Assembly (NCBI RefSeq): GCF_007000325.2
Contig: NZ_CP117267.1
Span: forward strand, 2,170,001-2,234,000
Direction: 5' to 3'
Length of the DNA stretch: 64,000 bases
DNA from: Rhizobium rhododendri
GTDB lineage: Bacteria > Pseudomonadota > Alphaproteobacteria > Rhizobiales > Rhizobiaceae
The notes under the pieces were generated by a model. The model did no database searches and was not told where the DNA came from. It was given only the letters and a program-made list of their open reading frames with translations. Made by a program: the position numbers and the translations under genes. Shown here one piece after another: positions 35,459 through 60,185 of this stretch; the first letter of the stretch is position 1; each line of letters begins with the position of its first letter.

Positions 35459-36070
35459 TCAAAGCCCGCCGTGGAGCTTGAGGAAATCGACGATCGTGCC
35501 AACGCCGTCGCCGCGCTTCATGTCGGAGAACACGAAGGGCAGATCGGCCCGCATGCGGGTTGCGTCACGGTCCATGACCTCGAGATCGGCACCGACATGC
35601 GGCGCAAGGTCCTTCTTGTTGATGACCAGCATGTCCGATTTCGTGATGCCGGGCCCGCCCTTGCGCGGGATTTCCTCGCCCTGGCAGACCGAGATCACAT
35701 AGATGGTGATGTCGGCAAGATCCGGAGAGAACGTTGCGGCGAGGTTATCGCCACCGGATTCGATGAAGACGATATCGAGATCCGGAATCCGCGCATTCAG
35801 CCCGGCTATCGCCTGCAGGTTGATGGTTGCATCCTCGCGGATGGCGGTGTGCGGACAACCGCCGGTCTCCACGCCGACGATACGATAGGACGGCAACGCC
35901 TGCATCCGTACCAGTGCCTCGGCATCTTCAGTCGTGTAGATGTCGTTGGTGACGACGGCGACGGAATACTCGTCGCGCAATGCCTTGCACAGCTTCTCCG
36001 TCAGCGCCGTCTTGCCGGAGCCAACAGGACCGCCGATACCGACGCGCAGGGGACCGTTTCTGGATTTCAT
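35459..36070 (-). CDS. ureG: Urease accessory GTPase UreG
   Basis: A 203-residue SIMIBI GTPase that delivers Ni and drives urease activation with UreE, UreF and UreD. It has P-loop [11 protein letters not shown], the Ni-binding CPH of [26 protein letters not shown] and the base-specificity NKKD. ATG 36070 starts the conserved region; upstream in-frame sequence is not UreG-like. It lies 109 bases after ureF and ends the ure gene row. Confidence 0.96.
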
Positions 36071-36179
36071 GGTTCGAACTCCGATAAAACATAAGGATAG
36101 TGAAACGCGACAGCGGCGGATAGAGGCAAATGACGTATCCGCACCCCGCCCCACCGGGATGAGAGTGGCAGAGCGGCGA

Positions 36180-36848
36180 TCACGAGCGGAACAGCCTCAC
36201 CCGTTGCGTCTCGTGCCTGAGAGCCACGATGTCGGCCTGGACAGCGGCCGAACCCAGATCGTCCAGGGTGGAAGACGCTGCTTTGGCGGCGGTAGTCGAA
36301 ACCAGGGTTTCAAGCCCGGCAAGCACCCCGACGCCGTCCCTCTGGCCACATACACTGAGCCGAATGGACGCCGAGACGCCCTGCGACACGAAGGCATGCA
36401 GGTAAGCCGCGATAGCGTCGCGTGCCCCGACCCCATGGGCTGCGGCAACCGCGCCGACGGCAACGGGATAGGCAAGCTTTTCAGGAACAGACACCGGCAT
36501 CTGCGGCCATGCGCCGGCAGCCGCCAGGAAAGCGTCCCCCAGTAGCATTGTTTCCTGATGCCGCTCCCGCGAACCGGCCAAAGCTTCTGCGAGTTCGGCG
36601 CAGGCAGCAAGCGGCTGGGGATCAGATGCCGAAGTATGCGCCTCGGCCATCAACACCGCATCGTTCCAGACAGCGCCATGGGTAAGGACCGAGGACAACC
36701 ATGAATCGAGATCCCGGGCATTGGTCACCAGCCCGTCATGCACCGCTCTTTCGAGGCCTTGCGAATAGGCAAACGAACCAATCGGGAAGGCCGGCGACAG
36801 CCAGGCCATCAGACGCAGCAGGGCAGTTGTTTGACTGACGTCACCCAT
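36180..36848 (-). CDS. ureF: Urease accessory protein UreF
   Basis: A 222-residue all-helical UreF. Typical blocks are [27 protein letters not shown] near the N-terminus, [16 protein letters not shown] in the middle, and [32 protein letters not shown]. It dimerises and recruits UreG to the UreD-urease complex, acting as the activation checkpoint. Its ATG lies five bases after the ureE stop. Confidence 0.95.
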
Positions 36849-36853
36849 GACGG

Positions 36854-37318
36854 TCAGTCGTGTGTTGGATGGCCGTGGTCGTGACCATGCGAATGGTAGG
36901 CGCCTCGCGCCGGCTGAAAAGGCTCGGTGACGTCGGCCACATCGGCACCCAGGCCTTCGAGCATCGATCGAATGACGTGATCGCGCAGGATGAGGATACG
37001 ATCTTCCTCGATTTGTGCCGGTAGATGCCTGTTGCCGAGGTGCCAGGCGAGCTCGATCAGATGCAACCGGTTGCGCGGCTTGATCTCGAACAGCTTCTCC
37101 GGCGCAGCGACGATCTCGATGAGTTCACCGTCCTCGCGCACCAGAAGATCGCCGTGGGCCAGCAGAACCGCTTCCTTGAGGTCGAGCATGACCATGTCGC
37201 CGTTCTCCAGATGCAGAAGCTTGCGGCGAAGATGGCGAAGATCATGCGGCAGGACGACCTTTTCGATCGGATGGGAAGATGGGGTGCCAGCCGGAAGATA
37301 GGAGGTGATGCGTTGCAT
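36854..37318 (-). CDS. ureE: Urease accessory nickel chaperone UreE
   Basis: A 154-residue UreE. The N-terminal peptide-binding domain (about 1-70) is followed by the metal-binding domain (about 75-140, with [30 protein letters not shown]). The His-rich tail [13 protein letters not shown] is suited to store Ni. It supplies Ni to the UreG complex. The gene is separated from ureC by about 3 kb of other genes and from the GGDEF gene by 47 bases. Confidence 0.96.
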
Positions 37319-38564: not shown

Positions 38565-38584
38565 TCAAGACAGGATATTTTTTG

Positions 38585-40393: not shown

Positions 40394-42106
40394 CTAGAAC
40401 AGGAAGTAGCGCTGCGCCATCGGCAAAACTGTTGCCGGCTCGCAGGTGAGAAGCTCGCCGTCCGCCCGCACCTCGTAGGTTTCCGGATCGACCTCGATAT
40501 GCGGCGTCAGGTCGTTATGGACCATCGACGCCTTGGAGATGCCGCCGCGTGTGTTGCGCACCGCGACCAGTTGCTTCGCCACGCCTAGCCTGTTCTGCAG
40601 TCCTGCATCGAGCGACGCCTGCGACACGAAGGTGACGGAAGAATTGGTCAGGCTCTTGCCGAAGGCGCCGAACATCGGCCGGTAGTGCACCGGCTGCGGC
40701 GTCGGGATGGAGGCGTTCGGATCGCCCATCGGGGCTGCCGCGATCGTGCCGCCGATGATGACCATGTCCGGCTTGACGCCAAAAAACGCCGGGCGCCACA
40801 TGACGAGGTCGGCGCGCTTGCCGACTTCGATGGAACCGATCTCATGGCTCAACCCCTGCGCAATCGCCGGATTGATGGTGTATTTGGCAATGTAGCGCTT
40901 GACGCGGAAATTGTCGTTTTCGCCGATTTCCTGCGCAAGCCTGCCGCGCTGGCGCTTCATCTTGTCGGCCGTCTGCCACGTGCGGATTGCTACCTCGCCG
41001 ACGCGGCCCATGGCCTGGCTGTCGGACGAGATGATCGAGAAGGCACCGATATCGTGGAGAATATCTTCAGCCGCAATGGTTTCCTTGCGGATACGGCTCT
41101 CGGCAAAGGCGATATCTTCCGGGATTGACGACGAGAGATGATGGCAGACCATCAGCATGTCGAGATGCTCGGCAATCGTGTTGACGGTGTAGGGCCGCGT
41201 CGGGTTCGTCGACGACGGAATGACGTTCGGCTGGCCGCAGATCTTGATGATGTCAGGCGCATGCCCGCCGCCCGCACCCTCGGTGTGGAAGGCGTGGATC
41301 GTCCGGCCCTTGATCGATCCGATGGTATCCTCGACAAAGCCGCTTTCGTTCAGCGTGTCCGTGTGGATCATCACCTGCACGTCGTATTCGTCTGCAACCG
41401 TCAGGCAGCAGTCGATGGCCGCGGGCGTCGTGCCCCAGTCTTCGTGCAGCTTCAGCGCACAGGCGCCGCCCAGCACCATTTCCTCGAGCGCGCCAGGCAG
41501 CGAGGCATTGCCCTTGCCGACAAAGGCAAGGTTCATCGGAAACGCGTCGGCAGCCTCGATCATCCGCGCGATGTGCCAAGGACCGGGCGTGCAGGTCGTG
41601 GCAAGCGTGCCGTGCGCCGGGCCGGTGCCGCCGCCAAGCATGCAGGTGATGCCGGACATCAACGCTTCCTCGATCTGCTGCGGCGCGATGAAGTGGATGT
41701 GGCTGTCCATGCCGCCGGCGGTGATGATCTTGCCTTCGGCGGCAATCGCCTCCGTGCCCGGCCCGACGATGATATTGACGCCAGGCTGCATATCTGGATT
41801 ACCAGCCTTGCCGATGGCCACGATGCGTCCATCCTTGAGGCCGATATCGGCCTTGACGATGCCCCAGGTGTCGATGATCAGCGCGTTGGTGATGACCGTA
41901 TCGACGGCACCGTCGGCGCGCGTCACCTGGCTCTGCCCCATGCCGTCGCGGATGACCTTGCCACCGCCGAACTTCACCTCTTCGCCATAGGTGGTGAAAT
42001 CCTTTTCGACCTCGATGAACAGTTCGGTGTCGGCAAGCCGCACTTTGTCGCCGGTGGTCGGCCCGAACATGTTGGCATAGGCGGCGCGGGAGATCTTGTA
42101 GGCCAT
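40394..42106 (-). CDS. ureC: Urease alpha (catalytic) subunit UreC
   Basis: The 570-residue catalytic subunit that hydrolyses urea to ammonia and carbamate. The Ni-binding site is complete: HxH in [12 protein letters not shown], the carbamylated Lys in [10 protein letters not shown], His in MIHTDTLNE and [14 protein letters not shown], the flap [16 protein letters not shown] with catalytic His, and Asp in [27 protein letters not shown] precedes the ATG. The length is normal for bacterial three-subunit ureases. It is the last gene of the ureDABC group. Confidence 0.98.
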
Positions 42107-42679: not shown

Positions 42680-42985
42680 TCAGAGCTTGCCCATGACCAG
42701 CTGGCGAAAACCGTAGACCTCGCGCTTGCCGGAAAGGGGAATGAGCGTCACAGAGCGGGTCTGGCCTGGCTCGAACCTAACGGCGGTGCCGGCCGGGATG
42801 TCGAGGCGCATGCCCCTCGCCTGCTCGCGGTCGAAGGCGAGCCCGCCGTTTGTCTCGGCGAAATGATAGTGGCTGCCGACCTGCACCGGCCGGTCGCCGG
42901 TATTGGACACGTCGATGGAGATCGTCGGGGCGCCGGCGTTCAATTCGATATCGCCGCTGGCGGCAATGATTTCACCGGGGATCAT
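42680..42985 (-). CDS. ureB: Urease beta subunit UreB
   Basis: A 101-residue UreB. The start [18 protein letters not shown] and the conserved [28 protein letters not shown] and [11 protein letters not shown] ending are typical. It is a structural subunit of the (ABC)3 urease trimer. Here UreA, UreB and UreC are separate, as in most bacteria. A DUF1272 gene lies between it and ureA. Confidence 0.97.
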
Positions 42986-43259: not shown

Positions 43260-43562
43260 CTACCGGATAGGTTCGTGGACGGTGACAAGCTTGGTGCCGT
43301 CGGGGAAGGTCGCCTCGACCTGCACGTCGTGGATCATCTCGGCAATGCCTTCCATCACCTGGTCGCGGCTGATGACATTTGCACCGGCCGACATCAGGTC
43401 GGCAACGGACCGGCCGTCGCGTGCGCCCTCGACGACGAAGTCGCTGATCAGCGCGATAGCCTCGGGATAGTTGAGCTTGACGCCGCGCTCAAGCCGCCGG
43501 CGCGCCACCATCGCCGCCATGGAAATCAACAGCTTGTCTTTTTCTCTCGGAGTGAGGTTCAT
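43260..43562 (-). CDS. ureA: Urease gamma subunit UreA
   Basis: A 100-residue UreA, the smallest structural subunit. [39 protein letters not shown] and [18 protein letters not shown] are diagnostic. ATG 43562 begins the conserved sequence; the frame runs open further upstream without homology. It is 19 bases downstream of ureD. Confidence 0.97.
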
Positions 43563-43581
43563 CGTCTGCCTATCGCTTGAA

Positions 43582-44403
43582 CTAGAGATTCCAGACTTTC
43601 GGCACTGGCGCGCCATTGCGCAAGGCCGAAATGATCGGGATGAGGATTTTTCTGAGCGCAAAGCCATCTGCCGCCGCAAGCCGGATCACCAGCTTGCCGT
43701 TCCAATGGCTGACGCCGCCGTTGCGCCCCTCCAGCATCGGCCGAACGGTCGAGAGATAGCGCTCCGCCGAAGGGCCTGCGTAGAGAACCGTGACGAAGGC
43801 AACCTGCCCGCCCAGCACCGCCCGCTCGGCAGTCAGGGCCGCGACATCGCCGTCGAACCGCAAGTCCTCGGCATGGATCAGCTTGCCGTTGCGGCGAATG
43901 CGCCAGCGGTCGCGGAAAAGTCCGGTCAGCATCGCCTCGCCCATCGCCTTGCGGCCCAGCAATACGGCTTCGACAGCGAGGAATTCCGCCGTCCCGTCGA
44001 GGTCGACATCGAGCGTGCGCGACAGCGCAGCGCGGTCGAACAGGATCGTCTCCTGCGGCAACCAGTCGACCCGCGCTCGGGCGCCGACCTCGATCCGCGT
44101 CCTGATTTCGGCAATACCGGCGGATGCCTTGTAGATCTTCTCGCAGGCCTGCGTCGTCACGTCGATGCGTGTCTGCGCCGCCGCCGTGACGCTCCAGTCC
44201 ATGCGATCGCCACCGGTCAGCCCGCCCGCCGTGTTGATGATGACGGCTTCCATCGAGCTGTCGAAGGTGTCTGGCAGCCGTATCTTGGCAGCGCCTTCCT
44301 GGAAGAATTCGGCAAGCCGGGTACGTCCGTCGAGCCACTTCGCCGCCAGGTGGCCGCGTCCCTCGGCCCTTTGCGGCCTGGTGCTCGCTGCCATCATCGT
44401 CAT
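43582..44403 (-). CDS. ureD: Urease accessory protein UreD
   Basis: A 273-residue UreD (UreH) that binds apo-urease and forms the scaffold for UreF and UreG. Visible family blocks are [49 protein letters not shown] and GRKAMGE. The start at 44403 is the first of two close ATGs. It heads the ure gene group, 103 bases after urtE, in the same direction. Confidence 0.95.
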
Positions 44404-44506: not shown

Positions 44507-45202
44507 TCAGACCGTCAGGTGGCGTCGGGCTTCCGGCTTATCCAGCGTTTCGGCCAACCCTTCATGAACGATCTCGCCGCGGTCCATGATGTAGACATAG
44601 TCGGCAAGCTCCCGGCAGAAATCGAGATATTGCTCGACCAGCAGGATCGCCATCCCAGTTGAATCCCGCAGATACTGGATGGCACGGCCGATGTCCTTGA
44701 TGATCGAAGGCTGGATACCTTCCGTTGGCTCGTCAAGCACGAGGATCTTCGGCCGCGTCACCAGCGCCCGGCCGATGGCCAACTGCTGCTGCTGCCCGCC
44801 CGAGAGATCGCCGCCCCGCCGCGACAACATGGATTTCAGTACCGGAAACAGTTGGAAGATGTCGTCCGGCACGGTCCGGTCGCGGCGCGCCAGCGGCGCA
44901 AAGCCGGTCTCAAGATTTTCCTTCACCGTCAGCAGCGGGAATATCTCGCGCCCTTGCGGCACATAGCCGATACCCTGCTTGGCCCGCGCATAGGGCGCCA
45001 GGCCGTCGAGCTTATGATCGTTGAAGCTGATGCTGCCGGCACTCAGCGCATGCTGGCCGGTGACAGCCCGCAGCAGCGAACTCTTGCCGACGCCGTTGCG
45101 CCCAAGCACGCAGGTGATCTTGCCCATCTCCGCCTTGATCGAAATGCCGCGGAGTGCCTGGGCGGCGCCGTAATGGAGATTTGCGTTTTCGACGGTCAGC
45201 AT
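44507..45202 (-). CDS. urtE: Urea ABC transporter ATPase UrtE
   Basis: A 231-residue LivF-like ABC ATPase. Walker A is GRNGVGKSS, the signature LSGGQQQQLAIGRAL and Walker B ILVLDEPTEGIQPS, with the UrtE-like YVPQGREIFPLLTV. It powers urea import together with UrtD. ATG 45202 is chosen since upstream in-frame sequence runs into a palindromic repeat. It is the last urt gene. Confidence 0.95.
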   Translation of the reverse strand: MLTVENANLHYGAAQALRGISIKAEMGKITCVLGRNGVGKSSLLRAVTGQHALSAGSISFNDHKLDGLAPYARAKQGIGYVPQGREIFPLLTVKENLETGFAPLARRDRTVPDDIFQLFPVLKSMLSRRGGDLSGGQQQQLAIGRALVTRPKILVLDEPTEGIQPSIIKDIGRAIQYLRDSTGMAILLVEQYLDFCRELADYVYIMDRGEIVHEGLAETLDKPEARRHLTV

Positions 45203-45233
45203 GGTGCGGATTCCTTTGTTTTCCGGGCGAGCA

Positions 45234-45361
45234 CCCCCCTCTGTCCCTCCGGGACATCTCCCCCACAAGGGGGGAGATCAGCCGAGACTTCTGGGCCCGA
45301 AAGGGAAAAGAACGATCTCCCCCCTTGTGGGGGAGATGTCAGCGGAGCTGACAGAGGGGGG
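45234..45361. repeat. 128-base palindromic element between urtD and urtE
   Basis: Perfect 12-base ends (CCCCCCTCTGTC at 45234-45245, GACAGAGGGGGG at 45350-45361) and a perfect internal 25-base inverted repeat (45254-45278 with 45315-45339). The two arms give one large cruciform or two hairpins. It belongs to a different family from the 20.4 kb and 49 kb repeats. It lies inside the urt operon and would be transcribed. Confidence 0.85.
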
Positions 45362-45395: not shown

Positions 45396-46151
45396 TCACC
45401 GCCCCAGATAATTCTCGATCACCTTCGGATCGCTGCTGACGAAATCGATTGAGCCTTCCGCGAGCACGGAGCCTTCAGCGAGACACGTCACCTTGACGCC
45501 GAGATCGCGGATGAAGCCCATGTCGTGCTCGACCACCACCACCGAGCGGGTCTTGGCGATTTCCTTCAGCAGGATTGCCGTCTCGGCGGTTTCCGCGTCC
45601 GTCATCCCGGCCACCGGCTCGTCGACCAGCAGCAGCTTCGGCTCCTGCGCCAGCAGCATGCCGATTTCCAACCACTGCTTCTGGCCATGGCTGAGGTTGG
45701 CCGCCAGCTCGTCGCGCCGATGGTGCAGCCGGACGGTATCGAGGATCTCGTCGATGCGGGCGCGGTCGGTCGGGGTCATCCTGTAGAACAGCGTCGCGAA
45801 CACGCCGCGACTGCGGTTCAGTGCCAGTTCCAGATTGTCCCAGACCGTATGGCTCTCGAACACCGTCGGCTTCTGGAATTTCCGGCCGATACCGAGCAAT
45901 GCGATGTCGGCCTCGTCCTTCTTGGTGAGATCGACGGCGCCGTTGAAGAACACCTCGCCTGAGTCTGGCTTGGTCTTGCCGGTGATGATGTCCATCATCG
46001 TCGTCTTGCCGGCACCGTTCGGGCCGATGATCGCCCTGAGTTCGCCGGGCTCGATGACCATCGACAGCGAATTCAGCGCCTTGAACCCGTCGAAGGAGAC
46101 AGACACGTTGTTGAGGTAGAGCATGCTTGTGGGTTTGCCGTCCGTGATCAT
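45396..46151 (-). CDS. urtD: Urea ABC transporter ATPase UrtD
   Basis: A 251-residue LivG-like ATPase. Walker A is GPNGAGKTT, the signature LSHGQKQWLEIGMLL and Walker B LLLVDEPVAGMTDAE, a signature form typical of UrtD. ATG 46151 has GGAG ten bases upstream at the end of urtC, four bases after its stop. It pairs with UrtE to drive the UrtBC channel. Confidence 0.95.
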   Translation of the reverse strand: MITDGKPTSMLYLNNVSVSFDGFKALNSLSMVIEPGELRAIIGPNGAGKTTMMDIITGKTKPDSGEVFFNGAVDLTKKDEADIALLGIGRKFQKPTVFESHTVWDNLELALNRSRGVFATLFYRMTPTDRARIDEILDTVRLHHRRDELAANLSHGQKQWLEIGMLLAQEPKLLLVDEPVAGMTDAETAETAILLKEIAKTRSVVVVEHDMGFIRDLGVKVTCLAEGSVLAEGSIDFVSSDPKVIENYLGR

Positions 46152-46155
46152 GCTC

Positions 46156-47316
46156 TTACTCCGCCGCCTGAATGGGTTCGTCGCTCTCGCCTTTTTCCGC
46201 CGCCGCGGACGCCCGCCGCGACCTGCCGCCGCCGGTGCCGTAATGGGCAATCGTGCCAATGACGCCACGTGGCAGGAACAGCGTCACGGCGACGAATAGC
46301 CCGCCGAGCGCAAACAACCACACCTCAGGAAATAGTCCGGTAAAGATCGTCTTGCCGCCGTTGACGAGGATCGCCCCGATGATCGGACCGATCAGCGTGC
46401 CGCGCCCGCCGACCGCCGTCCAGATGACCACTTCGATGGAGTTGGCCGGTGCGAATTCGCCGGGGTTGATGATGCCGACCTGCGGCACGTAGAGTGCACC
46501 GGCAATGCCAGCCATCATCGCCGAGACAACGAAGGTGAACAGCTTGATGTTCTCGACTCGGTAGCCGAGGAAACGGGTCCGGCTTTCGGCATCGCGCACA
46601 CCGACCAGCACCTTGCCGAACTTGGAGCGCACGATACCCGACGCGATCAGCAGGGCCAGCGCCAGAAACAGCGCGGTCAGCGCGAACAGCGCCGCACGGG
46701 TGCCGTCGGCCTGAATGTTGTAGCCGAGGATCTCCTTGAAGTCGGTGAGGCCGTTGTTGCCGCCGAAACCCATGTCGTTGCGGAAGAAGGCCAACAGCAG
46801 CGCATAGGTCATCGCCTGCGTGATGATCGAGAGATAGACGCCGTTGACGCGCGAGCGGAAGGCAAACCAGCCGAATACATAGGCGAGCAGCCCCGGCACC
46901 AGCAGCACCATCAGTGCTGCAAACCAGAAATGGTCGAACCCGTACCAGAACCACGGCAGCGCCTTGTAGTTCAGGAACACCATGAAATCGGGCAGGATCG
47001 CGTTGCCGTAGGAGCCGCGGGCACCGATCTGGCGCATCAGGTACATGCCCATGGCATAGCCGCCGAGCGCGAAGAAGGCGCCGTGGCCGAGCGACAGGAT
47101 GCCGCAAAAACCCCAGACGAGATCGAGCGCCAGCGCCAGTAGCGCGTAGGTCAGGTATTTGCCGAACAGCGACATGATGTAGGTCGGCACATGCAATGCG
47201 CTCTGCGGGCTCGTCAGGAGGTTGGACGCCGGGACGAGAATTGCCACTGCAATCAGCAGCAGGATTGCAATGATGATCTTGCGGTCGAGAGACCGGAGCA
47301 GGAAGGCCGTTATCAT
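46156..47316 (-). CDS. urtC: Urea ABC transporter permease UrtC
   Basis: A 386-residue LivM-like permease with about ten helices. Characteristic blocks are DLVWGFCGILSLGHGAFFALGGYAMGMYLMR and VVIWTAVGGRGTLIGPIIGAI. The C-terminus is a charged cytoplasmic tail. It overlaps the urtB stop by four bases, so the two permease subunits are translationally coupled. Confidence 0.95.
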   Translation of the reverse strand: MITAFLLRSLDRKIIIAILLLIAVAILVPASNLLTSPQSALHVPTYIMSLFGKYLTYALLALALDLVWGFCGILSLGHGAFFALGGYAMGMYLMRQIGARGSYGNAILPDFMVFLNYKALPWFWYGFDHFWFAALMVLLVPGLLAYVFGWFAFRSRVNGVYLSIITQAMTYALLLAFFRNDMGFGGNNGLTDFKEILGYNIQADGTRAALFALTALFLALALLIASGIVRSKFGKVLVGVRDAESRTRFLGYRVENIKLFTFVVSAMMAGIAGALYVPQVGIINPGEFAPANSIEVVIWTAVGGRGTLIGPIIGAILVNGGKTIFTGLFPEVWLFALGGLFVAVTLFLPRGVIGTIAHYGTGGGRSRRASAAAEKGESDEPIQAAE

Positions 47317-48929
47317 GCTTCCACCGCCCTTCCTTTGAGTGCGAAGAGCCCACGCGGTCGCTTCTGGATGAACAGGATGATGAGGACGAGCACCAGGATC
47401 TTGCCGAGCACGGCGCCGGCATAGGGCTCGAGGAACTTGTTGAGGATGCCGAGCGACATGGCGCCGACCAGTGTTCCCCAGAGACTGCCGACACCGCCGA
47501 AGACGACGACCATGAAGCTGTCGATAATGTAGGCCTGGCCGAGGTTCGGCGAGACATTATCGATCTGACTGAGCGCCACACCAGCCATGCCTGCAACGCC
47601 TGAGCCAAGCGCGAAGGTGAAGGCATCGACCCAGGCGGTGCGGATACCCATCGAGGACGCCATGCGCCGGTTCTGGGTTACCGCCCGCATCTGCAGCCCG
47701 AACGACGAGCGCTTCAGCAGCAGCAGCAGGGCAACAAAGACGACCAGCGCAAAGGCGATGATCCAGAGCCGGTTCCAGGTGATATCGAGGCCGCCGAGGT
47801 CGAACGAGCCGGACATCCAGTTGGGATTGCGGACTTCCCGGTTGGTCGGGCCGAAGATCGATCGCACCGTCTGCTGCAGGATGAGCGATATCCCCCAGGT
47901 GGCGAGCAATGTTTCCAGCGGCCGCTTGTAGAGGAAGCGGATGACGGTGCGCTCGATCAGGAAGCCAACGGCGCCGGTGAACAGGAAGGCTGCGGGCACG
48001 GCAAAGGCCAGGGAATACTCCGCAAGTCCCGGCGCATATCGGGTGATGGCCTCCTGCACGACATAGGTCGTGTAGGCACCGAGCATGACCATTTCACCAT
48101 GCGCCATGTTGACGACGCCCATTACGCCGAAAGTGATCGAGAGGCCGATGGCAGCCAGCATCAGAACCGAGCTCAGCGACAGGCCGTACCAGATGTTCTG
48201 CGCGACATCCCAGAGCGCCAGGGTATCCTTGATCGCATCCATATCCTTTTGGATGGCAGGCTGCAGGTCGGCCGATGCCGTCTGCATCGCTGCCGTCAGG
48301 ATGGTCAGCGCATCGCGGTCCCCGCGGGCCGCGATCATGTCGATGGCAGCCTTCTTGTCGGCCGGGCTGGCGTCGGTCTTCAAAAGCACGACAGCGCGCG
48401 CCGCTTCCATGGTCTTCTTGACCTGAGGATCTTTTTCCTCGGCCAGCGCGGAATTGAGCAGATCGATATTGCTGGGGTCGGCGTCCTTCAGCATGCCCTC
48501 GGCAGCCGCGAGGCGTGCGTCGCGATCCGGGCTTAGCAGCGTCAGCTGGCCAATCGAGGCGCTGATGACGCCGCGCAGAGAATTGTTGACCTTGACCTTG
48601 ACCATCGTGTCCGGATCGACGTCGGCCACAGCCTCGCCGGTGAGCGGATCGACAAAGGTTGGCGCATCGTCGGTGCCACCCTGCAAAAGTACCGGGCCGC
48701 CATCCTGGTTGACGAACAGCAGGCCGTCGCTCAGTTCCTTGAGGATCTTGCCGACATGCGGGTCCTTGGAAGCAACCAGCGCCTTGATCGCCGCTTCGCG
48801 TTCCGGAAAGTCGCCGACACCGAGCGCGTCGACCAGCGGATGGACCGCATCTTCCGCCTTCAGCACGGTGGCGAAGGCCGGCAGGGCGAGGCATAGGGTC
48901 AATAGGAAAATCTTGATGGCGCGATACAT
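47313..48929 (-). CDS. urtB: Urea ABC transporter permease UrtB with N-terminal periplasmic domain
   Basis: A 538-residue permease. A signal-like helix (MYRAIKIFLLTLCLALPAFATVL) and a soluble, helical-repeat-like region (about 25-235; segments such as EREAAIKALVASKDPHVGKIL and DRDARLAAAEGMLKD look like HEAT repeats) precede the LivH-like membrane core (about 240-535; NMAHGEMVMLGAY, VVFGGVGSLWGT). The extension is a known variant in UrtB proteins and may contact UrtA. ATG 48929 is chosen; the frame upstream reads through a RIME repeat. Confidence 0.94.
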   Translation of the reverse strand: MYRAIKIFLLTLCLALPAFATVLKAEDAVHPLVDALGVGDFPEREAAIKALVASKDPHVGKILKELSDGLLFVNQDGGPVLLQGGTDDAPTFVDPLTGEAVADVDPDTMVKVKVNNSLRGVISASIGQLTLLSPDRDARLAAAEGMLKDADPSNIDLLNSALAEEKDPQVKKTMEAARAVVLLKTDASPADKKAAIDMIAARGDRDALTILTAAMQTASADLQPAIQKDMDAIKDTLALWDVAQNIWYGLSLSSVLMLAAIGLSITFGVMGVVNMAHGEMVMLGAYTTYVVQEAITRYAPGLAEYSLAFAVPAAFLFTGAVGFLIERTVIRFLYKRPLETLLATWGISLILQQTVRSIFGPTNREVRNPNWMSGSFDLGGLDITWNRLWIIAFALVVFVALLLLLKRSSFGLQMRAVTQNRRMASSMGIRTAWVDAFTFALGSGVAGMAGVALSQIDNVSPNLGQAYIIDSFMVVVFGGVGSLWGTLVGAMSLGILNKFLEPYAGAVLGKILVLVLIILFIQKRPRGLFALKGRAVEA

Positions 48930-48967
48930 CGGCTCTTTTGCCTCGGTTATCGTAAAGCTGGGCTTTC

Positions 48968-49079
48968 CCTTCTCCCCCTCGGGGAGAAGGTGGCCCGAAG
49001 GGTCGGATGAGGGGGCACGGCAGAGAAGCCCCCTCATCGTCTCGCATTCGCTCGACACTTCTCCCCGACGGGGAGAAGG
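48968..49079. repeat. Pair of inverted RIME-like repeats between urtA and urtB
   Basis: The left unit 48968-49016 is almost identical to the repeat at 20407-20456. The right unit 49029-49079 is the inverse type, diverged in the middle, with CTTCTCCCC and GGGGAGAAG. Only 12 bases separate them. It is the same head-to-head frame as around the DUF559 gene, but empty. It may lower expression of urtBCDE relative to urtA. Confidence 0.8.
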
Positions 49080-49111
49080 GGGAGAGATCCCCCTTACGTG
49101 CCTTGTCCAAA

Positions 49112-50407
49112 TTACATGCCCTTGCCACCGCACTTGCCGGTAGCGACGTTGAAGTTGCCGCAGGACATTGGCTTGCGCCAATCGGAGATCAGGTCCTTGG
49201 AGTCGGGCAGGTAGTCCGACCATTCGTCGCCAACAACAGCAGGCGTCTGCTGGACGATGTCGAACTGGCCGTTGCCCTGGATTTCACCGATCAATACTGG
49301 CTTGGTGATGTGGTGGTTCGGCATGACGGTGGCATAGCCGCCCGACAGGTTCGGAACGGTCGTGCCGATGATCGTGTCGAGCACCTTGTCGGTGTCGGTG
49401 GAGCCGGCAGCCTGGACAGCCTTAACCCAGGCGTTGAAGCCGATATAGGCGGCTTCCATCGGGTCGTTGGTAACGCGCTTGTCATTCTTGGTGTAGGCGT
49501 GCCACTGCTTGATGAAAGCCTTGTTGGCAGGCGTTTCAACGGATTCGAAGTAGTTCCAGGCGGCGAGATGGCCGACCAGCGGCTTGGTGTCGAGACCGGC
49601 CAGTTCTTCTTCGCCGACCGAGAAGGCGATGACCGGGATGTCGGTGGCCTTGATGCCCTTGTTGCCGAGTTCCTTGTAGAACGGCACGTTGGCGTCGCCG
49701 TTGATCGTCGAGACGACGGCGGTCTTCTTGCCGCCCGAACCGAAATCCTTGATCTTGGAGACTTCAGTCTGCCAATCGGAGAAGCCGAACGGCGTGTAGT
49801 TGGTCATGATGTCTTCTTTCGGAATACCCTTGGAAATCAGGTAAGCCTCGAGAATCTTGTTGGTGGTGCGCGGATAAACATAGTCGGTGCCTTCGAGAAC
49901 GAAGCGCTTTACGCCTTCCTTCTGCATCAGGTAGTCGACGGCCGGGATCGCCTGCTGGTTAGGCGCGGCGCCTGTGTAGATGATGTTGCGCGAGGATTCT
50001 TCGCCTTCATACTGGACCGGGTAGAACAGCAGCGAGTTCAGTTCCTCGAATACAGGCAGAACCGACTTGCGGGACGAGGATGTCCAGCAACCGAATACGG
50101 CTGAAACCTTGTCCTTCTGGATCAGCTCGCGGGCCTTTTCGGCAAACAGCGGCCAATCGGAGGCGGGATCGACGACGACGGCTTCGAGCTTCTTGCCGAG
50201 AAGGCCACCCTTCTTGTTCTGCTCGTCGATGAGCATCAGCATGGCATCCTTGAGAGTGGTCTCGGAGATGGCCATGGTGCCGGAAAGCGAATGAAGAATG
50301 CCGACCTTGATCGTGTCGTCCGCAGCATAGGCGGCGCCGTTGAACAAAGCCGACGTCGACAGGACGGTACCGATAACGGCACCCGTGACGTAGTTCTTGA
50401 AATTCAT
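49112..50407 (-). CDS. urtA: Urea ABC transporter substrate-binding protein UrtA
   Basis: A 431-residue periplasmic binding protein with a signal peptide (MNFKNYVTGAVIGTVLSTSALFNGAAYA). The mature part starts DDTIKVGILHSLSGTMAISETTLKDA, the classic UrtA/AmiC-like segment, with VFGCWTSSSRKSVLPVFEELNSLLFYPVQYEGEE forming the pocket region. The final DWRKPMSCGNFNVATGKCGGKGM has two Cys. It captures urea (or short amides) for UrtBCDE. It is the first urt gene and is divergent from the permease-kinase gene, across a 214-base gap. Confidence 0.95.
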   Translation of the reverse strand: MNFKNYVTGAVIGTVLSTSALFNGAAYAADDTIKVGILHSLSGTMAISETTLKDAMLMLIDEQNKKGGLLGKKLEAVVVDPASDWPLFAEKARELIQKDKVSAVFGCWTSSSRKSVLPVFEELNSLLFYPVQYEGEESSRNIIYTGAAPNQQAIPAVDYLMQKEGVKRFVLEGTDYVYPRTTNKILEAYLISKGIPKEDIMTNYTPFGFSDWQTEVSKIKDFGSGGKKTAVVSTINGDANVPFYKELGNKGIKATDIPVIAFSVGEEELAGLDTKPLVGHLAAWNYFESVETPANKAFIKQWHAYTKNDKRVTNDPMEAAYIGFNAWVKAVQAAGSTDTDKVLDTIIGTTVPNLSGGYATVMPNHHITKPVLIGEIQGNGQFDIVQQTPAVVGDEWSDYLPDSKDLISDWRKPMSCGNFNVATGKCGGKGM

Positions 50408-50621
50408 TGTTTTATCCCCTCTTCGAATTCGACAACACCGGCGAAAACCCGCCGTTAACTGTTGCTTGAGGGACTATGGTTTGGCGCGGGAGAAAACCGT
50501 ATACGCAATTTGACGTAGGCGGTGGGCGAAACGTGCATCCTTTGCGTCGCGCCGCTTTAAGGCCGAGGATGAACCGTGTTAGCTATCCTCACAGCAAATC
50601 GCAGAGGACGTCGACAAAGGC

Positions 50622-53600
50622 ATGGCCGCACGCCAACGCATCATCCCCGTCAGGCGCGAATATAATCGCTGGGTCGCCAACCAGACGCTGGAAGACTACG
50701 CCCTGCGCTTTACCGCCAAGAGCGCCCGGCAATTCTCCTCGGCGCGGATTTCGCAGACGGCTATCGGCGCCATCTCGTTCCTGGCGCTGGAGGCAATCGG
50801 CGGCGCCATCACGCTCTCCTACGGCACGACCAACGCCTTCTACGCCATCATCGTCGCCAGCCTCGTCATGCTCGGCATCGGCCTGCCGATCAGCCGTTAC
50901 GCCATCCGCCACGGCGTCGACATCGACCTTCTCACCCGCGGTGCCAGTTTTGGCTATATCGGCTCGACCGTCACCTCGCTGATCTATGCCAGCTTCACCT
51001 TCATGCTGTTTGCCATCGAGGCATCGATCATGTCCGGTGCGCTTGAACTGACGCTCGGGATCCCGCTGTGGATCGGTTATATCATCAGCGCCTGCATGGT
51101 GATCCCGTTGGTCACTCACGGGGTCCGCCTTATCAGCCGCTTCCAGCTTCTGACCCAGCCCTTCTGGATCGTCCTGAATGTCCTGCCCTTCGTGTTCATC
51201 GCCTTTTCCGACTGGGAAAAGTTCGATATCTGGCGGGCCTTTGCCGGCCTCGACCGGCCATCCTCTTCCGGCACCCTTGCGCCCTTCAACCTGATCGATT
51301 TCGGCGCTGCCTCGGCTGTCATCCTCGCGCTGATTTCGCAGATCGGCGAACAGGCGGATTTTCTGCGCTTCCTGCCGCCGGAAGGCCATCGCAAGCTTCG
51401 CCACCGGCTGGCGATCTTTCTTGCCGGTCCCGGCTGGGTGATCATCGGCGCGCCGAAGCTGCTGGCCGGCTCGTTCCTTGTCGTGCTGACGCTGAGCGCC
51501 GGCGTGCCGCCCGACCGTGCCGCCGACCCGGCCCAGATGTATCTCACAGCATTTGGCTACATGATCCCCTGGCACAATGCAGCGTTGCTGCTGATGGTCG
51601 CCTTCGTGATGGTCTCGCAGCTGAAGATCAACGTCATGAACGCCTATGCCGGCTCGCTGGCCTGGTCGAATTTCTTCTCGCGCCTGACCCATAGCCATCC
51701 CGGCCGCGTCATCTGGCTGGTGTTCAACGTCGCCATCGCGCTGCTACTGATGGAGCTTGGCATTTACCGGCTGCTGGAAGAGACGCTCGGCATCTTCTCG
51801 ATCATCTCCATGGCCTGGCTCTGCACGATTTCGGCGGACCTGTTCATCAACAAGCCGCTCGGCCTCGCCCCAGAAGGCATCGAGTTCAAGCGCGCCCATC
51901 TCTACGACATCAACCCAGTCGGCCTTGGCGCCATGACCCTGTCGGCCGGCATCGCATTGACGGCGCATTTCGGCCTGTTCGGCGCAGTCGCCGCATCGCT
52001 TGCTCCCTACATCACCCTGATCGTAGCGCTGGTCGCCTCGCCTGCCATCGCCTGGGCCACCAAGGGCAAGTTCTACCTCGCGCGCAAACCGCGCCAGAGC
52101 TGGAAGAACCTCACCGATATCACCTGCTCGATCTGCGAGCACCCGTTCGAGCCGGAGGACATGGCCTGGTGCCCCGCCTACGCGGCGCCGATCTGTTCGC
52201 TTTGCTGCTCGCTCGACAGCCGCTGTCACGACATGTGCAAGCCGAACGCCAATCTCAACGCCCAGATCGGCACCGTCGCCCGCGCAGTGCTGCCGGCGAC
52301 GGTCATCGCCAAGCTGACAACGAGGCTAGGGCGCTATGGCATCGCCGTCGTGCTGGCGCTCGGTGCCGTCGGCGTCATCCTCGCCCTCATCGCCCACCAG
52401 GTATCCTCCGCATCGCCGGAGACGGCCGAAGTGGTCAACCGCACCATCCTGATCGTCTTCTTCGTCTTCGCCGTCATCGCTGGCATCGTCTGCTGGTTCT
52501 ACGTGCTGGCCCATGACAGCCGCGTCGTTGCCGAAGAGGAATCATCGCGACAGAACACGCTGCTGCTGAAGGAAATCGCCGCCCACAAGAAGACCGACGC
52601 GGCGCTACAGACCGCCAAGGAAACAGCTGAAAGCGCCAACCGTGCCAAGAGCCGCTATGTCGTAGGCCTCAGCCACGAATTGCGCACCCCGCTCAACGCC
52701 GTGCTCGGCTACGCCCAGATCCTCGAGCGCGACGAAACGATACCGGCGCCGCGCCAATCCTCGATCCGCGTGATACGGCGCAGCGCCGAGCACCTGTCGG
52801 GGCTGATCGACGGACTGCTCGATATTTCGAAAATCGAGGCCGGTCGCCTGCAGGTCTATTCGAACGAGATCAACATCCGCGATTTCCTCGACCAGATCAT
52901 CGACATGTTTCGGCCGCAGGCACAGGCAAAAGGCCTCACCTTCATCCATGAGCGCGCCGCCTCCCTGCCGGATTACGTCCGCACCGACGAGAAGCGGCTG
53001 CGGCAGATCCTCGTCAACCTGCTGTCCAACGCCATAAAATTCACAGACCGGGGAACGGTGCGCTTCGACGTCGGCTATCGTAGCCAGGTGGCCACATTCT
53101 CGCTTTCCGACACAGGACGCGGCATCGCCGAGAAGGACCTCGGACGCATCTACGAGCCGTTCCAGCGTGGCGAGGCAGAAACCGTCCGGCCGATGCCGGG
53201 CCTCGGCCTCGGCCTGACCATCACCCAGCTCCTCACCAACACCCTGGGCGGCGAGATTTCGGTGACCAGCGAAAAGGATGTCGGCTCGACCTTCAAGGTG
53301 CGGCTGATGCTGTCCGCCGTGCAGCGGCAGATGAAGCCCGTGCCGCAGGAGCGCAAGATCGTCGGCTATGACGGCTCGAGGCGGACGATCGTTGTCGTCG
53401 ATGACAACGAGGATCATCGGGAGATGATGCGCGAGATTTTGGTGCCGCTCGATTTCGTTGTCCTGACCGCCGTCAGCGGCCCGGATTGCCTGACACTGAT
53501 CGAAGGCATCAAGCCCGATCTTTTCCTTGTCGACATCTCGATGCCCGGCATGAACGGCTGGCAACTGGTGGCAAGGCTGCGCGAAAGCGGACAGGCGGGA

Positions 53601-54008
53601 CCGATCCTTATGCTCTCGGCCAATATAGGCGATGGAACCGCTGGTCGAGAAAACAGCAGCGGCCACGACGACGCCATCAGCAAGCCGGTCGATATCCGGC
53701 AATTGCGCGACCGGCTGGCGCTACATCTCGGCCTCAAATGGATCTATGCCGACACCGTTGCAGCCCCTGCAATTAAGGCACCGCTGCCAATGAAGAGCCC
53801 CGGCCTCGATCATATCGGAGAGTTGATAAGCCTTGCCGAAATCGGCTATATCAGGGGCATTGAGGCAAAGCTTGCAGATATCGCCAGGCTGCCCGAGAAC
53901 CAGCCTTTCATCGATGCTCTCCGGGTTTATGTCCAGGCCTTCGATCTGACCGGCTTTCTGGCATTCCTGCGTGAATTCGACATCGAAAAGGTAGAACCGA
54001 TTGGCTGA
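50622..54008 (+). CDS. NCS1 permease-like/hybrid histidine kinase fusion, Cys-rich linker
   Basis: An 1128-residue membrane sensor. Residues about 1-490 resemble an NCS1 (cytosine/purine/allantoin) permease with around twelve helices. A Cys cluster follows at 502-539 (Cys 502, 505, 517, 525, 528, 529, 535, 539), then two more helices (about 565-640), a coiled linker, the kinase core (His685 in LSHELRTPLNAVLG; NLLSNAIKFTD; DTGRGI; GLGLGLT), a receiver (about 925-1045, Asp971) and a helical tail. A transported or bound nitrogen compound is the likely signal. It is divergent from urtA and overlaps the response regulator gene by eight bases. Whether it still transports is unknown. Confidence 0.9.
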   Translation: MAARQRIIPVRREYNRWVANQTLEDYALRFTAKSARQFSSARISQTAIGAISFLALEAIGGAITLSYGTTNAFYAIIVASLVMLGIGLPISRYAIRHGVDIDLLTRGASFGYIGSTVTSLIYASFTFMLFAIEASIMSGALELTLGIPLWIGYIISACMVIPLVTHGVRLISRFQLLTQPFWIVLNVLPFVFIAFSDWEKFDIWRAFAGLDRPSSSGTLAPFNLIDFGAASAVILALISQIGEQADFLRFLPPEGHRKLRHRLAIFLAGPGWVIIGAPKLLAGSFLVVLTLSAGVPPDRAADPAQMYLTAFGYMIPWHNAALLLMVAFVMVSQLKINVMNAYAGSLAWSNFFSRLTHSHPGRVIWLVFNVAIALLLMELGIYRLLEETLGIFSIISMAWLCTISADLFINKPLGLAPEGIEFKRAHLYDINPVGLGAMTLSAGIALTAHFGLFGAVAASLAPYITLIVALVASPAIAWATKGKFYLARKPRQSWKNLTDITCSICEHPFEPEDMAWCPAYAAPICSLCCSLDSRCHDMCKPNANLNAQIGTVARAVLPATVIAKLTTRLGRYGIAVVLALGAVGVILALIAHQVSSASPETAEVVNRTILIVFFVFAVIAGIVCWFYVLAHDSRVVAEEESSRQNTLLLKEIAAHKKTDAALQTAKETAESANRAKSRYVVGLSHELRTPLNAVLGYAQILERDETIPAPRQSSIRVIRRSAEHLSGLIDGLLDISKIEAGRLQVYSNEINIRDFLDQIIDMFRPQAQAKGLTFIHERAASLPDYVRTDEKRLRQILVNLLSNAIKFTDRGTVRFDVGYRSQVATFSLSDTGRGIAEKDLGRIYEPFQRGEAETVRPMPGLGLGLTITQLLTNTLGGEISVTSEKDVGSTFKVRLMLSAVQRQMKPVPQERKIVGYDGSRRTIVVVDDNEDHREMMREILVPLDFVVLTAVSGPDCLTLIEGIKPDLFLVDISMPGMNGWQLVARLRESGQAGPILMLSANIGDGTAGRENSSGHDDAISKPVDIRQLRDRLALHLGLKWIYADTVAAPAIKAPLPMKSPGLDHIGELISLAEIGYIRGIEAKLADIARLPENQPFIDALRVYVQAFDLTGFLAFLREFDIEKVEPIG

Positions 54009-54924
54009 ACCCGCCCTGCCCCGCGACATCGTTCTGCTCGTGGATGACTCGCCGGAAGCCCTCGGATTTCTGACCGAAGCGCTCGAACAATCGGGCTTTT
54101 CCGTTCTGATCGCCACTTCCGGTCCGGCGGCGCTCGCCATCGTCGAGCGTATCACGCCCGACCTTATCCTGCTCGATGCCGTTATGCCCGATATGGACGG
54201 TTTCGAAACTTGCCGCCGGCTAAAGGCGAATTCCGGCATTTCGCAGGTGCCGGTGATCTTCATGACGGGGCTGACCGAGACCGAGCACGTCGTCCACGCG
54301 CTGGAATCCGGTGGCGTCGATTATCTTACCAAGCCGATCAATATCGACGAGTTGCGCGCCCGCATCCGCGTTCATCTGCGCAATGCCCGCTCGGCGCAAA
54401 GTGCAAGGGTGGCGCTCGATGCCGCCGGCCGCCACCTGCTCGCCGTCAGAGGCGATGGCAGCATCCACTGGTCGACGCCGCAGGCAACGCGATTGGTCAA
54501 TGCCGCCACCGGCAGCGACGATGGCCTGGAGCTTGTCGTGGCTGAAATCAGCGGCTTCATGCGAAAAGGCGGGCGCACCCTTCCCACTCGCGACAACGTT
54601 CTGTCCATCAGCCCCAACGGCCATGCAGCGCTGCAACTGGCTTTTCTCGGCACGATTGGTCCTGACGAGCACCTGTTCCGGCTGACCGCTGCACGGCAAC
54701 ATGCCGACGACAGCGTGCTGCGCCAGCATTTTTCCCTCACCCAGCGCGAATCCGAAGTGCTGCTGTGGATCGCCAAGGGCAAGGCCAACCGCGACATCGG
54801 CGAAATCCTCGGCCTTTCCGCCCGCACGGTAAACAAGCATCTGGAGCAGATCTACGTCAAGCTCGGCGTCGAGAACCGCGCCTCGGCAGCCGTCAAGGCG
54901 GCCCATGTGCTGCGCGAGATGTAG
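54001..54924 (+). CDS. LuxR-type response regulator paired with the permease-kinase
   Basis: A 307-residue regulator. The receiver (about 8-125) has acidic pair Asp15-Asp16, phosphoacceptor Asp59 (LILLDAVMPDMDG) and Lys in YLTKPI. A middle region (about 130-240) of unknown type follows (GDGSIHWSTPQATRLVNAAT). The C-terminal LuxR/GerE helix-turn-helix (about 240-305) reads LTQRESEVLLWIAKGKANRDIGEILGLSARTVNKHLEQIYVKLGVENR. The start is TTG 54001, overlapping the end of the kinase gene. It is presumed to control transcription in response to the fusion kinase, with urt/ure as first candidate targets. Confidence 0.9.
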   Translation: MAEPALPRDIVLLVDDSPEALGFLTEALEQSGFSVLIATSGPAALAIVERITPDLILLDAVMPDMDGFETCRRLKANSGISQVPVIFMTGLTETEHVVHALESGGVDYLTKPINIDELRARIRVHLRNARSAQSARVALDAAGRHLLAVRGDGSIHWSTPQATRLVNAATGSDDGLELVVAEISGFMRKGGRTLPTRDNVLSISPNGHAALQLAFLGTIGPDEHLFRLTAARQHADDSVLRQHFSLTQRESEVLLWIAKGKANRDIGEILGLSARTVNKHLEQIYVKLGVENRASAAVKAAHVLREM

Positions 54925-54966
54925 CGACGCAATCGATCCTCCATTTTGCAAGCAAGGACCAGCACG

Positions 54967-55575
54967 ATGAACTACCGTGTCGTTCTCTCCGGCTGCTCAG
55001 GCGGCGGCAAATCAACCCTACTCGCCGAACTGCAGCGTCTCGGCCACAGTGTTATTGAGGAGCCAGGCCGGAAGATCGTCGCCGAGGAGCGACAGGGCGA
55101 GGGCAAAGCCCTGCCCTGGGTCGATCTCGCAGCATTTGCGCGGCGCGCCATGGTGATGGCCAAGAGCGACTGGAACACTGCCAGCCAACTTGAAGGCTGG
55201 GTGTTCTTCGACCGTGGTCTTGTGGATGCCGCCGCAGCGCTGGCATACGCGACTGACGAAAAAACGCTTTTGCCACTCATCGACGGCTGGCGCTACCACC
55301 ATCAGGTTTTCCTGACGCCTCCGTGGCAAGAAATCTTTCAGACCGATACTGACCGCCGCCATGCGTTTGACGATGCCGTGCGGGAATACGAGCGCCTTCT
55401 GATCGCTTATTCGAGGCTCGGATATGAAGCCGTCGTCCTGCCGAGATTGTCTGTGACAGAGCGTGTCCGCTTCGTGTTGGAAACGCTGTCGCCATTCGGC
55501 GACACGACGTCTCCGGTCGAAAACGGAAAAGGCCCGGACGAGCCGGGCCTTCCCAAAATCAGCGACAGAAAATGA
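54967..55575 (+). CDS. P-loop ATPase/kinase-like protein (AAA_28)
   Basis: A 202-residue P-loop protein of the AAA_28 type. Walker A is GCSGGGKSTLL; then come VIEEPGRKIVAEE, the Walker-B-like WVFFDRGLVDAAAAL and a C-terminal lid region with EREY/REYERLL (DAVREYERLLIAYSRLGYEAVVLPRL). Such proteins resemble small nucleotide or NadR-like kinases, but the function is unknown. ATG 54967 follows AAGGA. It lies 42 bases after the response regulator gene. The last 16 or so codons run through a transcription-terminator hairpin, so the C-terminal GKGPDEPGLPK is terminator-derived. Confidence 0.75.
   Translation: MNYRVVLSGCSGGGKSTLLAELQRLGHSVIEEPGRKIVAEERQGEGKALPWVDLAAFARRAMVMAKSDWNTASQLEGWVFFDRGLVDAAAALAYATDEKTLLPLIDGWRYHHQVFLTPPWQEIFQTDTDRRHAFDDAVREYERLLIAYSRLGYEAVVLPRLSVTERVRFVLETLSPFGDTTSPVENGKGPDEPGLPKISDRK
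55529..55551. terminator. Bidirectional terminator overlapping the AAA_28 C-terminus
   Basis: AAGGCCCGG (55529-55537) pairs with CCGGGCCTT (55543-55551) around a five-base loop. On the minus strand the stem is followed by TTTTCCGTTTTC, a good U tract for livK (stop 55577). On the plus strand it lies inside the last codons of the ATPase gene. Confidence 0.8.
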
Positions 55576-55576
55576 G

Positions 55577-56701
55577 TTACTTCACGTCCTGCGGGAAGTA
55601 GCTGATCTTGCCGTCGGGGCCCTTCTTCCATTCGTACATGATGTAGCCTGGGATCTTCGGGTCGCCCTTGGCGTCGAACGAGATATCGCCGAGAACGGTT
55701 GAGAACGGACCCTTTTCGTGCATGGCCTTGGCAACGGTTTCAGCGTCAACCGAAGCAGCAGCCTTGGCAGCGGCAGCGATCGTCTGAACGGCAGCATACG
55801 AGTAGAGCGTGTATGCTTCCGGGTTGAAGCCGGCAGCCTTGAACTTCGCAACGAGGTCCTTGTTGGCCGGGTTCAATGTCGGATCTGGACCGAAGGTGTT
55901 CAGCGTGCCGATGACGGCGTCGCCAGCGATCGAAGCCAGTTCGTTCGAAACGATACCGTCGCCCGAAACGAGTGTGGCCTTGACGCCCTGGTCGGCAGCC
56001 TGGCGGATGATCAGGCCGGCTTCCGTGTGCAGGCCACCCCAATAGATGATCGAGACGCCGGCTTCCTTCATCTTGGCGATGAGGGCCGAGAAGTCCTTGT
56101 CGCCGACGTTGATGCCTTCGTACATGACTTCCGTCATGCCGGCGGTGTTCAACGCCTTCTTGGTTTCATCGGCGAGACCCTGACCGTATGGGGTCTTGTC
56201 GTGAATGATGGCGATCTTCTTGTCCTTGAAATGGGCAGCGAGATAGGCGCCGGCAACGCCGCCCTGCTGGTCGTCGCGACCGCAGGTACGGAATGTGTTC
56301 CACAGGCCGCGTTCCGTGAAGGTCGGGTTGGTCGCGGCAGGCGTGATTTCGAGAATGCCGTTTTCGGCATAGACTTCCGATGCCGGGATGGAAACGCCCG
56401 AGTTGAAGTGACCAACGACGTACTTGACGCCATCGGCAACGAACTTGTTGGCAACCGAGATGCCCTGCTTCGGATCGGAAACGTCGTCGCCGAGTTCGAT
56501 CTTGATCTTTTCGCCATTGATGCCGCCGGCAGCATTGATGTCTGCTGCGGCCTGTTCGGCACCCTTCTGGAGCTGTGCACCGAAGGCTGCGTTCGGACCG
56601 GTCAGGGGACCACCGACGCCAATGATGATATCGGCCCATGCAGTACCGCTGAAAGCGACGAGCGCCGTCAGAGCCACTGCCGAAAGAAGAGATTTCTTCA
56701 T
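55577..56701 (-). CDS. livK: Branched-chain amino acid binding protein LivK
   Basis: A 374-residue type I periplasmic binding protein. A signal peptide ([23 protein letters not shown]) precedes [38 protein letters not shown], the standard LIV start. [26 protein letters not shown] and [20 protein letters not shown] mark the ligand cleft. It binds leucine-type amino acids for the LivHMGF channel. GGGAG precedes ATG 56701. It is downstream of livF and a small membrane gene, with a 118-base gap that may hold its own promoter. Confidence 0.94.
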
Positions 56702-56819
56702 ATTATTACTCCCAATTTTTGGGCGGGGACCGGTCAAGAACCCAACGCATTACCCACCATTGTCCGCGTCGGGGAAGCTGTTCCACTCCAGGCAATTCAT
56801 GCCCAGTTTCAACGGGCTG

Positions 56820-57173: not shown

Positions 57174-57196
57174 AGTAAAGCTCCCCTTCTGTCGGC

Positions 57197-57925: not shown

Positions 57926-57926
57926 G

Positions 57927-60181: not shown

Positions 60182-60185
60182 GTTA

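Follow-up and report, generated by a model that had tools for sequence, protein, structure and literature searches.

In a 64-kb window of the Rhizobium rhododendri genome (four contigs, 5.96 Mb; the window is the whole stretch of 64,000 nucleotides that we analyzed), we found a hybrid sensor histidine kinase whose membrane domain is a diverged NCS1-type transporter. It is encoded together with a LuxR-type response regulator and divergently from urtA, the first gene of a urea uptake operon. The family to which the kinase belongs represents a new form of transporter-fused kinase, tied to the use of urea or formamide. The kinase and regulator very likely control the urea or formamide operons beside them, and they probably form a two-component system that senses a small amide (urea in this organism) and governs its uptake and breakdown. 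There is also a good chance that the NCS1-type domain is the part that reads the amide. The nearest named record among the matches listed was Rhizobium sp. L51/94 chromosome 1 (best segment, 100%).

Gene organization and domain architecture

The kinase gene is one open reading frame (ORF) of 1128 amino acids on the forward strand (50622..54008), and its ATG at 50622 is the earliest in-frame start codon past the stop at 50580. The original prediction, made from the letters of the window, had described a single frame joining a membrane domain, a cysteine cluster, and a complete hybrid kinase, and this was borne out. The membrane domain spans residues 1 to 490 (50622..52091), all eight cysteines were located from residue 502 to 539, and two extra predicted transmembrane helices (residues 568 to 633; 52323..52520) stand ahead of the kinase. 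Pfam identified HisKA (residues 676 to 741; 52647..52844), HATPase_c (residues 788 to 897; 52983..53312), and a fused receiver, Response_reg (residues 923 to 1032; 53388..53717); His685 (codon 52674-52676) and Asp971 (codon 53532-53534) are intact and lie exactly where they had been placed. The response regulator (54001..54924, forward strand) consists of a REC domain (residues 11 to 123) and a LuxR-type GerE domain (residues 245 to 300), both identified by Pfam, and as a LuxR/NarL-type regulator it carries Asp59, which is present in all ungapped rows of an alignment of 77 regulators. Its TTG start at 54001 overlaps the kinase stop codon (54006-54008), and urtA (start, 50407) diverges from the kinase across a gap of 214 bases (50408-50621), both as originally described.

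The NCS1 label of the membrane domain held in profile-profile comparison and in the predicted fold and failed in the Pfam search. Transp_cyt_pur (PF02133) gave no match to the kinase protein at an E value of ≤1 and matched none of 29 sensor N termini, that of the window included; above the cutoff, Pfam had no match at all in the first 640 residues. In contrast, hhalign aligned the domain with an NCS1 profile over 416 columns with a probability of 99.2 and an E value of 3.2e-19, the profile consisting of 30 rows, one of which (L027) had itself been retrieved with the query. A reversed control reached 0.7 and an SSS profile 0.4 (E value, 0.15), while SSS against NCS1 gave 91.4. The predicted fold was closest to those of CodB and Mhp1 (NCS1 structures 2jln, 2x79, 4d1a, and 7qoa). 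By these two comparisons, the membrane domain is of a diverged NCS1 type, with the LeuT fold. The closest transporter relative of the sensor found in our survey was a free-standing NCS1 permease, which is encoded in a row with a carbon-nitrogen hydrolase and a Peripla_BP_5 protein (L270:7949-12373).

Most kinase homologs adjoin urea or formamide genes

We surveyed a class sample of 385 genomes and a phylum sample of 398 genomes, with some genomes in both. The sensor domain was matched in 28 of the 385 class genomes (26 strongly and 2 weakly) and in 61 of the 398 phylum genomes, with an E value below 1e-100 in 52 of the latter. Apart from the window, we fetched the loci of 76 strong matches (25 from the class set and 51 from the phylum set; genome G583 was excluded) and of the one transporter. 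One of these loci was dropped because its kinase gene is broken in frame (L053:9667-12039, genome G326; the regulator is still matched), leaving 75 intact kinases, or 76 with that of the window. Neighbors were typed from tblastn matches to urt, ure, and fmd proteins in stretches of up to 19.5 kb, and the nearest genes decided the type.

Co-occurrence of the kinase with urt genes, which the original prediction had proposed to survey, proved to be one part of a wider pattern. Urea genes were nearest to 25 of the 76 intact kinases and formamide genes to 46, and the remaining 5 were near neither (L039, L040, and L042, all of one genus; L230, at a contig end; and L050). The suggested link to urea genes was thus strengthened, with 71 of 76 kinases beside urea or formamide genes. 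Close named relatives, Rhizobium and Agrobacterium among them, add to this: of 543 loci found, the best 80 all have a divergent urtA and the regulator. Beyond what had been predicted, the formamide cluster is the commoner partner in the wider family. It consists of a urt-like ATP-binding cassette (ABC) operon, whose binding protein is ∼40% identical to UrtA of the window, followed by genes for the formamidase FmdA and the zinc-ribbon protein FmdB. FmdA was identified by NF045496 at the one locus scanned (730.8 bits; cutoff, 500) and elsewhere by similarity to that protein. In 73 of 75 intact loci, the kinase gene is followed directly by the regulator gene in the same orientation; the two exceptions, L263 and L265, have only a weak regulator match, on the opposite strand. 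These two encode short NCS1 kinases (∼880 amino acids, probably too short to include the fused receiver; sensor 52% identical) that lie 2.2 to 2.3 kb from another FmdA/FmdB pair and may represent a third branch for another amide.

Allantoin or a nucleobase had also been named as a possible ligand, a suggestion that the neighborhoods do not support: when the unassigned ORFs of 25 loci were grouped, with no search by name for allantoin or pyrimidine genes, the recurrent neighbors were formamide genes and a porin. The porin-like ORF group occurs near several operons (L046:9336-10514 and also L033, L036, L048, and L049); the one member scanned matched PF07396, with ExtI below the cutoff.

In the class sample, FmdA exceeded the cutoff in 20 of 385 genomes, and the kinase was present in 16 of these 20 versus 10 of the other 365 (Fisher P = 2.9e-18, uncorrected for relatedness). 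The types are named from neighbors, and therefore only orphan kinases and absences give independent information. In 13 of the 16 genomes, the formamide operon is linked to the kinase; the other 3 are those of the orphan genus (L039, L040, and L042), whose kinases carry Phe129 and whose fmd operon is unlinked. Conversely, no FmdA above the cutoff was present in the 8 class genomes, that of the window included, whose urea-type kinase is linked to its operon, nor in G051 and G326. The orphan kinase of G051 groups with a urea-type clade, and urtA lies ∼61 kb away in that genome.

A shared dyad in the divergent promoters

The gap between urtA and the kinase contains the dyad TACGCAATTTGACGTA (50502..50517, no strand assigned), the predicted operator of the response regulator. 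The pattern TACG-N8-CGTA occurred in 37 of 54 divergent gaps, which were taken between tblastn matches and hence contain the first codons of some genes; spacings of 2 to 7 and 9 to 15 gave 0 or 1 occurrence each, and shuffled gaps gave a mean of 0.3 expected dyads. Among the close named relatives, it lies between urtA and the kinase in 80 of 80 loci, which is conservation and not 80 events. The window holds it once and the genome 20 times, and the fuller form TACGYM-N4-KRCGTA was seen by eye at only two of these 20 sites, the second within a coding region.

Across the 75 loci, 61 of 68 dyads were ≤350 bp upstream of a match to the kinase, urtA, fmdD, or fmdA, compared with 4.3% of random positions. 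Counted by locus, such a dyad was present in 52 of 75: 38 of 46 formamide-type, 10 of 24 urea-type, and 4 of 5 other loci. Where the kinase and operon are separated, the dyad tends to be found at the target operon. In L220 to L223, where an insert parts the kinase from urtA, it is still 88 to 111 bases away from the urtA match; it lies ahead of fmdA in L233, L239, and L240; and in L257 and L268 it is ahead of urtA even though the kinase faces ureA. The three genomes of the orphan genus carry it both ahead of the kinase and ∼270 to 290 bases ahead of the distant fmdD match. The DNA-binding helix of the regulator, presumably its recognition helix, is nearly constant over urea and formamide types. 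The four FmdA genomes that lack the kinase yielded no dyad in their fetched stretches, which is a weak control because dyads are rare, two of the stretches are without ABC genes, and the clusters are more distant (FmdA 65 to 66% identical). In L046, L048, and L049, a dyad also lies ∼100 bases upstream of the porin-like ORF group.

Paired copies and partner changes

All four genomes with two full-length kinases hold one of each type (L241/L259, L254/L257, L253/L267, and L260/L256). On the best tree of the sensor domain, the partner label changes 6 times, while shuffled labels need ∼21 changes. Supported branches force at least 3 changes, or 4 with the two short kinases (L263 and L265) removed, on a tree that was built by a quick method with SH-aLRT as its only support and in which some long branches meet. 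The Rhizobiaceae group of the window joins a formamide group.

Sensor pocket and cysteine module

Conservation of the substrate-binding residues, which the original prediction had proposed to check, did not hold. Compared with Mhp1, by equivalences read by eye from the alignment and at residues that we take to have ligand- and Na+-binding roles there, several residues of both sites differ. Trp117, Gln121, Trp220, and Gln42 of Mhp1 correspond to Leu129, Glu133, Leu237, and Phe53 of the kinase (Leu129 to Glu133, 51006..51020, forward strand), and Ser312/Thr313 to Lys335/Ile336 (Lys335 to Asn340, 51624..51641, forward strand). Lys335 thus stands at Ser312 or Thr313, presumably the Na+ site, and Asn318 is kept as Asn340. 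All 76 sensors share Glu57, Glu133, Glu243, Gln244, Asp246, Lys335, Asn337, and Asn340. At residue 129, every one of the 44 full-length formamide-type sensors has Phe, and 13 of the 25 urea-type sensors, from three lineages, have Leu; the remaining urea-type lineages deviate instead at residue 55, 339, or 401. Because of this residue pattern at the Mhp1-equivalent sites, we infer that the ligand would be small and polar and that Na+ coupling would be absent.

The region between the membrane domain and the kinase had only DUF6526 in Pfam (E value, 0.016; below the cutoff), and it is occupied by the cysteine module (residues 502 to 539; 52125..52238, forward strand), possibly a two-metal cross-brace. 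Its cysteines (502, 505, 517, 525, 528, 529, 535, and 539) are the same in all 29 sequences aligned, and the window and each of the 75 intact kinase loci show the pattern; across the family, the module is as constant as the kinase part. The pattern was not found in the transporter L270. Folded alone, the module gave a modest model (predicted local distance difference test [pLDDT] score, 68.4), whose weak structural matches were mostly zinc fingers of the RING, PHD, FYVE, and ZZ types. The module may be a metal-holding coupler that links the transporter domain to the kinase, and an iron-sulfur center is also possible.

Urea genes and other genes of the window

The urea genes all lie on the reverse strand. 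Profile matches identified urtA (49112..50407; TIGR03407, 553.9 bits; cutoff, 492.75), the urea ABC transporter binding protein gene; urtB (ORF at 47313..49223, with the true start probably internal; TIGR03409, 434.1 bits); urtE (44507..45268; TIGR03410, 338.4 bits); and ureC (40394..42106; TIGR01792, 986.5 bits), encoding the urease alpha subunit. Judging by position and sequence, we take the others to be urtC (46156..47316), urtD (45396..46268; start probably internal), ureD (43582..44403; no NCBIfam match), ureA (43260..43568), ureB (42680..42985), and, within 35459..37318, ureE (36854-37318), ureF (36180-36848; no match in the NCBIfam scan), and ureG (35459-36154). The urease cluster includes a gene for a small LprI-type protein (PF07007) between ureB and ureC (42240-42656, reverse strand) and, between ureC and ureE (37366-39280, reverse strand), a GGDEF diguanylate cyclase gene and, as read from the sequence, a peroxiredoxin-like gene.

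Directly behind the regulator lies an AAA_28 NTPase gene (54946-55575, forward strand), present in 9 of the 80 close-relative loci, followed by a liv-like ABC operon of the branched-chain amino acid type (55577-61088, reverse strand; read from the sequence), whose livK is present in 68 of the 80. Of the pyrimidine catabolic pathway that had been placed in the window, dihydropyrimidinase, the sole member checked, was confirmed (21035-22489; TIGR02033, 604.5 bits). A bacteriophytochrome-like kinase is encoded at 15572-18142 (forward strand; best NCBIfam match NF041576, 323.9 bits, below the cutoff of 1040).

Relation to known systems

The closest parallel is CbrA/CbrB of Pseudomonas, in which CbrA is an SLC5-STAC-PAS histidine kinase (PMC13022988, PMC7096432) proposed to signal by transport of histidine; its Na2 site is filled by Lys196, and transport is described as proton driven (PMC13022988). 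Like CbrA, the window kinase fuses a LeuT-fold transporter domain to a histidine kinase through an intervening linker module, has a lysine at the Na+ site, and is tied to nutrient control. Unlike CbrA, it carries an NCS1 domain, and the place of the STAC four-helix bundle and PAS domain appears to be taken by the eight-cysteine module and two transmembrane helices; CbrB is a sigma54-dependent regulator and the ligand is histidine, whereas the window regulator is of the LuxR type. Membership in the SLC5/STAC (CbrA-type) group by way of an SLC5 domain was rejected on the SSS probability given above and on the lack of an SSF match in Pfam. CrbS/R and RpuS/R (PMC5715377, PMC9100948) likewise use a transporter-type sensor to govern the use of its substrate but are SLC5/STAC systems for acetate and pyruvate. 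Ks-Amt5 (PMC5764959), an ammonium transporter-histidine kinase fusion, also recruits an uptake module as the sensor of a nitrogen compound; it differs in its Amt domain, in its ligand, ammonium, and in having no PAS, HAMP, or STAC linker. Mhp1 and CodB are free-standing transporters, and several of their ligand and Na+ site residues are not shared with the kinase.

The formamide-type partner operon resembles the urtABCDE-fmdA-fmdB-amiE cluster of Pseudomonas veronii Yu15, in which formamide is a nitrogen source and amiC and amiR were not found; the accessible portions of that account name no kinase (PMC13209695). In the open-access literature, with most subscription papers outside this scope, we found no urea sensor with a transporter-type input.

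Proposed mechanism and alternative explanations

In the mechanism that we favor, the NCS1-derived domain would be a transporter fold that has become a sensor, perhaps without losing transport, and it would bind an external small amide, which would be urea in the Rhizobiaceae and several other lineages and formamide in the remainder. Binding would shift the inward/outward state of the domain, and this change would reach the kinase by way of the cysteine module and the two additional helices. The kinase would autophosphorylate on His685 and pass the phosphate to Asp59 of the regulator, with Asp971 of the fused receiver as a relay or sink. The phosphorylated regulator would then bind TACG-N8-CGTA between the divergent units and turn on urtABCDE, and urease either directly or by read-through; in formamide-type relatives it would turn on the urt-like ABC genes and fmdA.

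Several observations weigh against this mechanism. UrtA exceeded the cutoff in 88 of 385 class genomes and the sensor domain was matched in just 28, and therefore the kinase is not required for urea use; 4 of the 20 FmdA genomes of that sample also lack it. Because neighbors decide the type label, the co-occurrence of formamide-type kinases with FmdA largely follows from the definition. Among the 76 sensors, no single residue splits all urea-type from all formamide-type sensors. The exact dyad was missing within 350 bp of a listed gene in 23 of 75 loci, 14 of them urea-type, and from both stretches fetched for the orphan urea-type G051; urea-type groups of other lineages are mostly without it, a real weakness of the one-operator view. 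Finally, a neighborhood reveals regulation more directly than ligand, and the signal could be nitrogen status.

A broader proposal is that the family consists of small-amide transceptor kinases, each combining an NCS1 domain, an eight-cysteine metal module, and a hybrid kinase and paired with a LuxR-type regulator and a TACG-N8-CGTA operator, in which formamide and urea were swapped several times through small changes in the former substrate pocket (Phe129 to Leu and changes at 55, 339, and 401) and in which the cysteine module is a new coupler, the counterpart of STAC. We advance it tentatively, as plausible and somewhat short of probable. A related possibility, compatible with the favored mechanism, is that the domain is a true transceptor that imports urea or formamide and signals by transport. 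The conserved transporter core and Lys335 at the Na+-site position, recalling Lys196 of the proton-driven CbrA, are in its favor; 64 of 75 loci encode a dedicated urt or fmd ABC importer in the stretch that was fetched, and uptake through the sensor would therefore be redundant. We regard this variant as rather unlikely.

Less likely still, the pair might control the operons while the kinase reads nitrogen state or a cytoplasmic signal (ammonia, or metal or redox state via the cysteine module), with the NCS1 domain as a passive anchor. No part of the protein is more invariant than the cysteine module, and urea genes are commonly under nitrogen control. In Rhizobium leguminosarum TA1, urtABC was induced in acid minimal medium (PMC11547076), which also fits this explanation. 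One general signal, however, needs no separate copy per substrate, as found in all four two-copy genomes, and many positions of the membrane domain are invariant, unlike those of a mere anchor.

Known NCS1 substrates include allantoin, hydantoin, and nucleobase-type compounds, and a dihydropyrimidinase gene lies 28 kb from the kinase, so the sensor might read such a compound, with the urea genes downstream in the same catabolism. We consider this highly improbable: partnership with formamide clusters is more common (46 of 76), formamide is to our knowledge no product of these pathways, and Leu or Phe at 129 and Leu237, at the positions of Mhp1 Trp117 and Trp220, poorly fit a stacked ring. That the neighborhood arose by chance or pure ancestry, without regulation, has almost nothing to recommend it beyond the 80 named loci being close relatives and thus few events, given that partners changed several times, always between urea and formamide genes, and that the dyads are concentrated at these promoters and go with the operon where the genes are apart.

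If the favored mechanism is correct, a function, an operator, and a class of ligands could be assigned to a widespread proteobacterial system, whose ligand switches would form a natural series for testing how a transporter is turned into a receptor. The kinase would then be a testable new kind of nutrient sensor.

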